Shown: in pieces, positions 59,651-63,512 of the stretch
Numbering within the stretch: the first letter of the stretch is position 1
How the letters are laid out: the number at the start of each line of letters is the position of its first letter
NCBI GenBank assembly: GCA_016932695.1
Contig: JAFGCH010000016.1
Location: 1-64,000 of the forward strand
DNA: 64,000 nt
Direction of reading: 5' to 3'
Source: Acidimicrobiia bacterium
GTDB lineage: Bacteria > Actinomycetota > Acidimicrobiia > Spongiisociales > UBA11373
Notes under the pieces: model-generated
What the model saw: only the letters and a program-made list of their open reading frames with translations
Databases searched by the model: none
Told to the model about the DNA's origin: nothing
Translations under genes and position numbers: made by a program

Positions 59651-61054
59651 TCAGCAGCTGACGAAGGCGCCCGTACCGGTGCCGAAGCTGCGGATGCGAG
59701 CGCTCGCGGCGGGGGGATCGGAGGGCGGATTCGCGAAGCGGCCGTTGTTGTAGCTCAGGTTTTCGTGGTACCAGAAGGCTACGCCGTCCGGATCCAGGTC
59801 GAAGCGTGCCCCCATCTCCTCGAAGTCGGCCCAGCGCCAGGCGGGGCGGATGCCGCCGGCGAAGAACAGCCAGTCCGGCAGGTCCTGGAGGTCGTTGACT
59901 TCCCAGCCGTCGAACTGCCGGGAACCGTTGCGGTCGGTGAAGATGGCGGTGAAGCCGTCCCAGGTGATCTCCTGCCAGTCGGCTCCGCTGCACGGGCTGG
60001 AGAACCAGCCGGTGGAGTCATCCGGGGTGCCGAACAGCAGGGTCAGGGAGGCTCGGGCTTCGGCTGCAGGCGTGCCGAAGGCGACCTCGCCGACACCCTG
60101 CCGGGAGGCGAGCACGATGTCGGATTCGCCCGAGACCACCTCTTCCAGCAGACGCTGGGTCTGCGGGCCCGCCTTGCCGTCGACGTCGAGGCGGTAGTCG
60201 CGCTGGAAGAGGCCCACCGCCTCCTCGGTCTCCTCGTCGTAGGTGCCCCCGCCGGCTCCGCCGTAGTAGCCCAGTTCGGCCAGGGTTTGTTGCAGGGCGG
60301 CGATGTCTTCGCCCTCATCCCCGGGGCGCAGGATGCCGTCGTCGGAGACGGTCTCGCACTCCAGGGTTCCGGTGAAGGTGCATTCGATCTCGCCGGTGTA
60401 GGCGGCGACGGGCTCCCCCCCGCCGAAGTAGTCATCGGCCGGGAAGACGGATACCCCGGCGATGAAGTGCGCCGACCCGGTCCAGTCGAACACTTTGGGC
60501 GCCAACTCGAGCGCAGCGAGGTGCTCGACGCGGCGGGCCTGGTAGTCCGTGGTGGTCTCCAAGTAGGCGAGGATCGAGGCGTAGTCGATCACCACGTAGG
60601 GGTTCCAGCCCCCCAACCCCCGCCCGTACAGGACCAGGGCTTGGTAATCGGGGGCATAGGGGCCTTCGGTGAACGAAACTTGAAGGAGCATCTGATCGCT
60701 GTTGAGGCCGGTGATGGTCGGCATCGGATCGGGAAGGCGGAGGGAGAGGCGGGTGCCGGTCCCGTCGAGGGTGTCCTGCGACACCACCTCGTCTTGCTGC
60801 GGGTTGCGGTAGCGCATCTGGTGAGACCCCGTGTCCCGCAGCGGGTCGGCGACCGGATCGGCCAGCAGGGGGGCTAGGGGGCCGGTGTCGGGCGCCGCGG
60901 TGCTCGTGCTCGTCGTGCTCGTCGTGGAGGTCGTTAGGGCTTGGGTCGTGGTGGTCGTCGAGGCTTCCGCGGTGGTCGAGGTCCCGGTGCCGCCGCAGGC
61001 GGCAGCGCAGAGGGCTACCACGAGCAGCAGGGTGAGCCGGCGAGCGGCGGGCAT
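59651..61054 (-). CDS. Lipoprotein with peptidoglycan-binding domain
   Basis: Lipobox LCAAAC, Thr/Ser linker, ILRPGDEGEDIAALQQTLAELGYYGG...GLFQRDYRLDVDGKAGPQT. Confidence 0.82.
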   Translation of the reverse strand: MPAARRLTLLLVVALCAAACGGTGTSTTAEASTTTTTQALTTSTTSTTSTSTAAPDTGPLAPLLADPVADPLRDTGSHQMRYRNPQQDEVVSQDTLDGTGTRLSLRLPDPMPTITGLNSDQMLLQVSFTEGPYAPDYQALVLYGRGLGGWNPYVVIDYASILAYLETTTDYQARRVEHLAALELAPKVFDWTGSAHFIAGVSVFPADDYFGGGEPVAAYTGEIECTFTGTLECETVSDDGILRPGDEGEDIAALQQTLAELGYYGGAGGGTYDEETEEAVGLFQRDYRLDVDGKAGPQTQRLLEEVVSGESDIVLASRQGVGEVAFGTPAAEARASLTLLFGTPDDSTGWFSSPCSGADWQEITWDGFTAIFTDRNGSRQFDGWEVNDLQDLPDWLFFAGGIRPAWRWADFEEMGARFDLDPDGVAFWYHENLSYNNGRFANPPSDPPAASARIRSFGTGTGAFVSC

Positions 61055-61183
61055 GGAGCCTCCGAGAGGACGAAACGCTGCTCGGAAGGTAGCAAGCCTC
61101 GCGCGGTTGTGCCGATGGGCGGGGCCATTTGGGCCCGGGCCCCGCTAGCCTTCCCGGCAACGGAGAAAGGAGGTGGTCCAACA

Positions 61184-61228
61184 GTGATAGGCAGTTCTTA
61201 CAGGACCCCGGAGGTGGCCGGGCGCTAA
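61184..61228 (+). CDS. Candidate 14-codon mini-ORF (VIGSSYRTPEVAGR) with extended Shine-Dalgarno
   Basis: AGAAAGGAGGTGGTCCA (61164-61180) 3 nt upstream of GTG; TAA at 61226-61228; followed by 7-bp hairpin. Confidence 0.4.
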   Translation: MIGSSYRTPEVAGR

Positions 61229-61251
61229 GCGGCCATCACAGGGGTGGCCGC
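61229..61251 (+). other. Hairpin gcggcca-N9-tggccgc directly after mini-ORF stop
   Basis: 7-bp perfect inverted repeat. Confidence 0.5.
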
Positions 61252-61379
61252 TCCCCGGGGACGACCTCGGGGTAGGTGGCGACTCCAACCCGGACCACCG
61301 GGCCCGGAGATCCGTCAGTTGGTCCTCTGGCGGCGGCGGCGACGCTGAAGTGTCTCCGGGCCTGTCCGCGTCCCGGGGG

Positions 61380-61931
61380 TCAGTGGCGGGCAGCTTCCTG
61401 CTGCAGTGCCTCCAGCAGGCGGCGGATCTGGGAGCGGAAGCGCTCGTCGACCAGGTGCCCGGCGGCATCGAAGCGGCTCTCGGCGGAGTCGATCAGCACC
61501 TCGGGCAGGCCCACCACCCGTACCCGGTTGTGGCGCAGTATCTCGCGCAGGTGCGTCTGCGCCCGTACCGTGCCGAAGCGGCCGCCCGCCCCCAGGATGG
61601 CTGCCGGCTTGCCCCGCAGCGGGGAGGCTTCCCCGCCGCGCGAGGCCCAGTCGAGGGCGTTCTTGAGCACGCCGGGGATCGACCAGTTGTACTCCGGCGT
61701 GGCGACCAGCAGGGCGTCCGCCGCGGCGATGGCCTCCCGGAGGCGGGTTACCTCGTGGGGCAGCCCGGCCGCCTCCACATCCGCGTCGAAGTGGGGGATG
61801 CCGTGGAGGGTCATCACCTCCAGCACCATGCCTGGCGGAGCCAGGTCGGTCGCGGCTCGCAGGGCGGCGGTGTTGAAGGACGCGCCGCGCAAACTGCCCG
61901 AGATGGCGAGGACGCGTAGAGGTGGAGTCAG
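61380..61931 (-). CDS. NADPH-dependent FMN reductase-like flavoprotein; start uncertain (CTG at 61931?)
   Basis: LRVLAISGSLRGASFNTAAL, TPEYNWSIPGVLKNALDW; no ATG/GTG/TTG upstream of the flavin-binding motif. Confidence 0.82.
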   Translation of the reverse strand: MTPPLRVLAISGSLRGASFNTAALRAATDLAPPGMVLEVMTLHGIPHFDADVEAAGLPHEVTRLREAIAAADALLVATPEYNWSIPGVLKNALDWASRGGEASPLRGKPAAILGAGGRFGTVRAQTHLREILRHNRVRVVGLPEVLIDSAESRFDAAGHLVDERFRSQIRRLLEALQQEAARH

Positions 61932-62567: not shown

Positions 62568-63512
62568 ATGCCTCCGCCGCCTCTTCAGACCGTCATCGCC
62601 TTCATCTGGGATTTCGACAGCACCTTGATCGTGGGCAACCAGCAGGATGCCCTCTTCGAGCACTACGGGGTAGACCCGCAGACCTTCTGGGCCGAGGTGG
62701 AGGCCCTGCCCGCCTTCCACCGGGAGCGGGGCGAGATCATCTCCCGGGACACGGCCTACTTGGTGCACCTGCTCACGTACGTGGAGGCTGGGGTACTCCC
62801 CGGCCTCGACAACGCCCGCCTCCGGGAGTTGGGCGGCCGGCTTTGCCCCAGTCCCGGCATCCCCGAGTTCCTTGCCTACACGCGCCGACGCGTTGCCGAA
62901 AACCCGGCTCTCGCCTCTGCCGGCATCGTGGTAGAGCACTACGCCGTGTCCACCGGGCTGCTCCCCATGATCGAGGGGAGCCCCATCGCCCCCTACCTGG
63001 ATGGGATCTGGGCCAACACCCTCCTCGAGCACACCGCGCTCCCCGGCTACCTCCATGGCGCGGCGGCCTGGGGCAGCCGGCGGATCACCCGCCAGGGCCT
63101 GGTGGTCGACGGGACCACCAAGACGCGGGCGATCTTCGAGATCAACAAGGGGACCAACCGCGATCCCGCCATCGACGTCAATGCACCGCTGCCCGAGGAG
63201 CAGCGCCGAGTGCCCTTCTCGCAGATGATCTACGTGGCCGACGGCTTCAGCGACGTTCCGGCCTTCGCCCTGCTCAACGATCGGGGAGGGCGCACCTTCG
63301 GGGTGTACCCGGCGGCCCCGGCCGGCGGCCGGTCGCGGGCCGAGGATCTCCATGAGCAAGGGCGCATCCAGGGGATGGCCGAAGCCGACTTCCGTCCGGG
63401 CACCGCGGCCTACCGGTGGCTCGTCGAGTGCCTCGACGGGGTCGCCGGGGAGGTCCTGGCGGCCAGGCGACGGGGCGCGCCGGAGGCCCCGCGATCCCCC
63501 GGGTGCTCTTGA
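62568..63512 (+). CDS. HAD family phosphatase-like protein
   Basis: IWDFDSTLI, IYVADGFSDVPAFALLND. Confidence 0.88.
   Translation: MPPPPLQTVIAFIWDFDSTLIVGNQQDALFEHYGVDPQTFWAEVEALPAFHRERGEIISRDTAYLVHLLTYVEAGVLPGLDNARLRELGGRLCPSPGIPEFLAYTRRRVAENPALASAGIVVEHYAVSTGLLPMIEGSPIAPYLDGIWANTLLEHTALPGYLHGAAAWGSRRITRQGLVVDGTTKTRAIFEINKGTNRDPAIDVNAPLPEEQRRVPFSQMIYVADGFSDVPAFALLNDRGGRTFGVYPAAPAGGRSRAEDLHEQGRIQGMAEADFRPGTAAYRWLVECLDGVAGEVLAARRRGAPEAPRSPGCS

Follow-up and report, generated by a model that had tools for sequence, protein, structure and literature searches.

What is the role of a 14-codon open reading frame (ORF) that stands directly behind a Shine-Dalgarno (SD) sequence complementary to the whole free 3' tail of 16S rRNA? 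Such an element lies near one end of a 64,000-nt stretch of an Acidimicrobiia bacterium genome (contig JAFGCH010000016.1 of assembly GCA_016932695.1, positions 1 to 64,000; hereafter the window), where the SD and the mini-ORF form the 5' third of a predicted RNA of about 200-210 nt (~61160-61370). Comparative evidence from genomes of the phylum Actinomycetota shows conservation of the element in single copy, of the frame of its ORF and of two long-range pairings; we further infer a promoter, gating by the ribosome and an order of switching. Our preferred reading, to which we assign a probability only slightly above one half (about 0.55), is a small structured RNA (~210 nt) that stands alone and in which translation of the built-in mini-ORF gates the fold.

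The Shine-Dalgarno sequence and the mini-ORF

The SD segment, S1, pairs over 17 consecutive positions with the 16S tail, with one G-U pair, as a sequence-only reading of this locus had proposed; the proposal is borne out by the real tail TGGATCACCTCCTTTCT, found as a single occurrence in 6 of 14 family genomes (one of them of the same genus) and read from these relatives, the window's own assembly lacking that 16S end. The chance expectation for the S1 17-mer at up to three mismatches is 0.08 per window, and it was observed once, exactly. The pattern GAAAGGAGGTGRTCC has a single occurrence in the 2.44 Mb genome. Of the 148 genomes of the class, 48 contain GAAAGGAGGTGGTCC, always exactly once and with flanks that align; the reversed version of GAAAGGAGGTGGTCC gave no match in the same 148 genomes. 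We considered and rejected an antisense 16S fragment or 16S artefact, the locus being unique and having conserved flanks of its own. S1 hardly varies among elements, and its complementarity to the 16S tail is maintained across the phylum.

The frame of the mini-ORF, set by its internal GAGGTG motif, was tested on 177 non-redundant elements retrieved with patterns that specify neither start codon nor frame, although the sequence model R1 (see below) does span the stop region. An NTG codon lies 7-13 nt after GGAGG in the GAGGTG frame in 156 of the 177 elements, compared with 8 and 16 when the other two frames are read, and the scanned stretch before GAGGTG is interrupted by an internal stop in 3 elements in this frame, compared with 88 and 147 elements in the others. 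In 167 elements the distance from the first base of GAGGTG to the stop codon is exactly 15 nt (TAG 119, TGA 39, TAA 9), as it is in all 40 of the elements fetched later, whose NTG starts are distributed over the three frames as 36, 0 and 0. Start codons are diverse (UUG 67, AUG 49, CUG 20, GUG 18, AUC 8, AUU 2, AUA 1), and ORF length ranges from 12 to 15 codons. Ten of the 177 elements lack the stop at +15: in nine (L109-L111, L125-L130) it stands one base nearer (+14), the same GGAGGTG nucleotides are read as a GGGSS*-type ending, not EVAGR*, and the start (UUG or AUU) has shifted with it; in L131 the stop directly follows EVA. Where the search did not demand the motif, GGAGGTG was present in 45 of 46 elements and GAGGTG in 30 of 30. 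Judged from these comparisons, the SD, frame, start spacing and stop position of the mini-ORF are under selection.

The sequence-only reading had made its proposal hinge on conservation in relatives, and SD and ORF are indeed present there and kept as a unit; its GTG ORF of 14 codons with a TAA stop, and the 7-bp hairpin behind it, were likewise placed correctly (Table 1). Of all the parts of the element, this hairpin is the least widely shared. As a separate observation, some elements (L048, L050, L051, L055, L117, L136-L139) have AUU or AUC as the in-frame codon where the start should lie and no NTG at normal spacing, making them candidates for natural non-AUG initiation aided by the over-strong SD.

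Long-range pairings with 5' halves inside the ORF

Two segments of the ORF, S2 and S3, pair with sequences well downstream of the stop codon. In the S3-S4 helix, GGUGGCYG (after GA) pairs with downstream CAGNCACC, and the downstream region of an element is matched better by the S3 of that element than by S3 segments taken from others (swap test, p = 1.8e-13; as the elements share ancestry, this value and the shuffle statistics below overstate independence and are not strict probabilities). Two-sided changes include GGUGUCCGU/ACGGACACC and GGUGACCAU/GUGGUCACC, GGUGAUGAG/CUCAUCACC and GGUACCCGG/CCGGGUACC, as well as GGCGA-CUGG/CCAG-ua-UCGCC in L106, where the peptide is EATGR, with EV changed to EA. 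S2 is the hexamer ending 3 nt upstream of GAGGTG, and its partner is the apical loop of the 3' hairpin (P3), an arrangement that would form a pseudoknot. Here 5.08 of 6 positions are paired, against 4.47 +/- 0.05 when shuffled 1000 times, and one position that is otherwise G-C also occurs as C-G, A-U and U-A, each compensated; the 40 later elements give 5.61 versus 5.02 +/- 0.08 when shuffled, and include GUGACC/GGUCAC and GCGACC/GGUCGC. The repeated compensation in separate lineages weighs more than the swap and shuffle figures. Covariation analysis, proposed earlier as a check on this region, therefore yielded compensatory changes in both pairings, and we conclude from the aligned elements that both are under selection, with their 5' halves within the ORF.

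The ends of the RNA can be placed approximately. In 108 of the 177 non-redundant elements, a TANNNT hexamer precedes the AAGG of the SD by 20-21 nt, with TTG at -43/-44, and a conserved A-C is found at -8/-7 relative to the SD in about 90% of elements; the positions of these three features suggest that transcription starts ~7-8 nt upstream of the SD. No strong -35 was found upstream of the window's own copy. The P3 hairpin domain is probably the transcript end, and the element runs to about 61370, ~120 nt past the end given to it earlier (61251).

Table 1. Parts of the element and adjoining genes, in window coordinates
Feature	Sequence	Position	Strand	Basis or remark
Putative promoter, -10 hexamer	TAGCCT	61146-61151	+	TANNNT recurrence in relatives
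Probable transcript 5' end	ACGG	61160-61163	+	Conserved A-C; Rfam match begins at 61159
Extended SD (S1)	AGAAAGGAGGTGGTCCA	61164-61180	+	16S free 3' tail complementary over whole length
Mini-ORF	VIGSSYRTPEVAGR	GTG 61184-61186; coding 61184-61225; TAA 61226-61228	+	Frame, start spacing and stop position kept phylum-wide
S2, within ORF	AGGACC	61202-61207	+	Pseudoknot partner is loop GGUCCU, 61321-61326; covariation
S3, within ORF	GGAGGTGGCCGGG	61210-61222	+	SD-like core and one strand of the S3-S4 helix (GGUGGCCGGG, 61213-61222, with CCCGG-a-CCACC, 61289-61299)
Post-stop hairpin	GCGGCCA..TGGCCGC, 7 bp	61229-61251	+	Direct sequence; found in near relatives, variable elsewhere
S4	CCCGGACCACC	61289-61299	+	Partner of S3 (10 bp, A61294 bulged) or of S1 61172-61179 (8 bp)
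P3, 3' hairpin domain	Outer stem CCCGGAGA/TCTCCGGG; inner stem CCGTCAG/CTGGCGG	61303-61360	+	Direct sequence; domain kept in relatives
Apical loop, S2 partner	GGTCCT	61321-61326	+	Covariation
Peptidoglycan-binding gene		59651-61054	-	Divergent from element
FMN reductase gene (FMN_red)		61380-61892	-	Convergent, next downstream

Translation as a proposed gate, and other explanations

We propose that a ribosome binds at the 5'-terminal SD and then reads the 12-15 codons. Because S2 and S3 lie in the later part of the ORF and the stop codon just beyond S3, a translating or terminating ribosome would have to melt both the S2-loop and the S3-S4 pairings, and an empty RNA would refold; ribosome transit and the folded state would be mutually exclusive. 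With the stop codon in the A site, the SD-like S3 would sit 8 nt before the P-site codon, so that termination may last longer there, and the terminating ribosome could grip S3 via its anti-SD, leaving S4 free. In the order to which the window belongs, the freed S4 could in turn shut the SD (8 bp), giving a self-limiting switch; as S4 can pair both with the SD and with S3, it would close the one or hold the other, never both. The likely purpose would be to couple the shape, lifetime or availability of the RNA to translation initiation, with trans-acting pairing, protein binding, RNA lifetime and ribosome sensing as candidate outputs. A more far-reaching version, which we offer tentatively, is that of a widespread Actinomycetota switch in which translation of the mini-ORF by one ribosome, loaded through the over-strong SD, melts the pseudoknot and the long-range helix, the terminating ribosome is retained through contact of its anti-SD with the internal SD-like element, and the RNA reports ribosome or initiation status to targets in trans.

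The alternative S1-S4 pairing is drawn from the window's order, where all 32 elements contain GGACCACC within S4, the exact complement of the SD segment GGUGGUCC; the A of GGACCACC is bulged in the S3-S4 helix of the window, yet invariant in the order. In a calculation that leaves pseudoknots out, the window is predicted to favor S1-S4 (-120.5 kcal/mol) over S3-S4 (-114.8 kcal/mol). A phylum-wide helix between S1 and downstream sequence was also considered and found unsupported outside some lineages. An S1-S2 hairpin was set aside, S1 varying too little for covariation to bear on it.

Several observations weigh against gating by translation. The folding energies take no account of the pseudoknot, and the S1-S4 alternative is present in none of 20 mycobacteria and is patchy elsewhere, so that this layer is lineage-specific or is replaced by something else in other lineages. 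Shared ancestry, as said, inflates the statistics for the pairings. The lineage with the shifted stop (L109-L111, L125-L130) has no S2, and its GUCC loop is missing as well; L170 (Tsukamurella) and L224 (Patulibacter) retain the SD, ORF and stop, with S4 or the bulk of the downstream domain seemingly gone. Finally, SxDSS-like residues at the N-terminus of the peptide recur with differing serine codons, hinting at some selection on the peptide itself. Independently of these points, a tRNA-like sequence lies closely downstream of the shortened element in L125-L127, L129 and L130.

That serine codon switching, together with the in-frame conservation and a Thr-x-Glu-Val near the C-terminal end in most lineages, is what a gene for a highly translated micropeptide of 12-15 residues with a TxEVxxR ending would be expected to display, and a micropeptide was among the roles first suggested for the locus. 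As a main role, it fares poorly: the conserved residues fall on base-paired RNA segments, GGAGGTG is kept while the frame changes (EVAGR* versus GGGSS* in one lineage), GGACC stands in another codon phase in family f37 (GPREV), EV gives way to EA in L106 where the helix is compensated, and many starts are weak (UUG, CUG, AUC, AUU). We thus consider the micropeptide unlikely, and the element is probably not primarily a peptide gene. Dual-function small RNAs (sRNAs) such as SgrS/SgrT and SR1/SR1P resemble it in carrying a short translated frame on a small RNA (in the window, a predicted one); they differ in that the window's ORF overlaps the structured core rather than lying beside it, and apparently in that peptide sequence is not what is kept. 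The frame is maintained while residues vary along with the RNA; some serine codons are switched. A ribosome shield, in which the SD and mini-ORF keep a ribosome on the RNA against 5' decay and the 3' domain acts like a conventional antisense or protein-binding sRNA, would account for the short distance (about 5-8 nt) between the SD and the probable 5' end, as in the STAB-SD of cry3A, at which a bound 30S subunit blocks RNase J1 (PMC4113751), and for pairing with the whole 16S tail, which is more than initiation requires. Like STAB-SD stabilizers (cry3A and others), the window has a polypurine SD near the 5' end that should be able to bind 30S; unlike them, it has a conserved start at normal spacing and an ORF behind that SD, within a structured stand-alone RNA. 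A STAB-SD is an SD that does not direct translation, and the conserved in-frame start and fixed stop suggest that this one does. Shielding also leaves the placement of S2 and S3 inside the ORF unexplained, and we regard it as rather unlikely.

The full-tail complementarity maintained over the phylum would equally suit a decoy that titrates 30S subunits or tunes translation globally, also raised in the sequence-only reading. This much of the idea stands; a decoy has no use for an in-frame start, a fixed stop and two covarying folds, and a single gene copy would require expression near the level of ribosomes, which makes a decoy quite improbable. A short ORF followed by a stop codon and hairpins also looks like an attenuator, for example the leader peptides of S. 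lividans (PMC8079986), and a regulatory leader peptide had been suggested. This has very little chance of being right: the first gene past the element is on the minus strand and points toward it, the next plus-strand gene starts at 62568, about 1.3 kb away, and the downstream gene is on the opposite strand at 47 loci (mostly in mycobacteria, Actinomadura and Nocardiopsis). The neighbors also change by lineage. In mycobacteria, Actinomadura and Nocardiopsis an Aminotran_4 gene tends to precede the element, and a gene for a THAP4-like heme-binding beta-barrel protein to converge on it; an acyl-CoA dehydrogenase gene is often the preceding one in other Acidimicrobiia, and in Thermoleophilia that place is taken by gyrA. 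With lineage-dependent neighbors and a convergent next gene, the element is best taken as a gene of its own rather than a cis leader, and the attenuator was rejected. The ribosome-gated reading retains one likeness to attenuator leaders (trpL, ilvL and others in actinobacteria), namely that translation of a short ORF could choose between alternative pairings; unlike them, the element is stand-alone, without a regulated gene downstream.

Relation to Ms_IGR-5 and distribution

At a relaxed threshold, an Rfam scan matches 61159-61370 to RF02471 (Ms_IGR-5) with 25.9 bits (E 4.5e-4), below the gathering cutoff of 45 bits; the alignment covers model positions 1-184 of 184, collinear and not truncated. 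Most genomes of the window's class score under the cutoff: among 20 class loci, the five best relatives reach 33-46 bits (top relative 45.9). Of 150 genomes from across the phylum, 32 gave a single match each, with 161-176 bits for the top three. By sequence homology, the window element is a divergent homologue of Ms_IGR-5 (M. smegmatis ncMSMEG15794c, S. lividans SLIV_16488), with which it shares the 5' SD, GAGGUGGCUG, GCAGUCACC, the hairpin with a GUCC loop and occurrence in single copy. The window copy differs in having the added post-stop hairpin, an S4 that also complements the SD, and a location away from the Aminotran_4 and THAP4-like genes that adjoin the mycobacterial copies. Homologues of MS_IGR-5 are transcribed in S. 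lividans (PMC8079986), S. avermitilis (PMC8780764) and M. smegmatis (PMC10454040), and were found ribosome-protected by ribosome profiling in M. abscessus and M. smegmatis (PMC4974804).

In the papers found, Ms_IGR-5 is a plain sRNA, with neither an ORF nor a pseudoknot mentioned, and no account of its ORF, pairings or function was found in the openly accessible literature; the coding nature and tertiary contact of the family appear to be so far undescribed. An RNA usually kept in single copy, in several classes of a phylum to which Mycobacterium and Streptomyces belong, is catalogued as a plain sRNA with no listed function, and the evidence for an obligatory mini-ORF that interlocks with two covarying folds turns it into a testable ribosome-dependent device. 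Annotation overlooks the element, which has an ORF of 12-15 codons, often a UUG, CUG, AUC or AUU start, and, in most genomes of the window's class, a sub-cutoff Rfam score.

The sequence-only model R1, built from 60 elements including the window copy, detects it in 82 of the 149 genomes searched from the class and in 106 of the 298 from the phylum, nearly always in single copy; only two genomes have two (L310 and L311 in G127, L143 and L144 in G353). Carriers include Mycobacterium, Nocardiopsis, Actinomadura, Micromonospora, Salinispora, Cellulomonas, Nocardioides, Rhodococcus, Gordonia, Amycolatopsis, Acidimicrobiia and Solirubrobacterales. A DNA search of a plasmid collection gave chance-level matches only. 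Three elements (L156, L193, L262) are on contigs labelled Acidobacteria or Acidobacteriota; that of L193 is typical of Acidimicrobiia, and its label is probably wrong.

At the cutoffs of the curated RNA families, the whole window contains only two tRNAs, both elsewhere, and the element matches none of the families; low-score matches to Guanidine-II, CC2171, a miRNA and CcsR1 fall far below their cutoffs and were discarded. ARAGORN additionally calls a tRNA-Glu at 63138-63231 (minus strand) within the plus-strand ORF 62568-63512, by eye a HAD-like phosphatase; this call is unsupported by Rfam and is probably a false positive.
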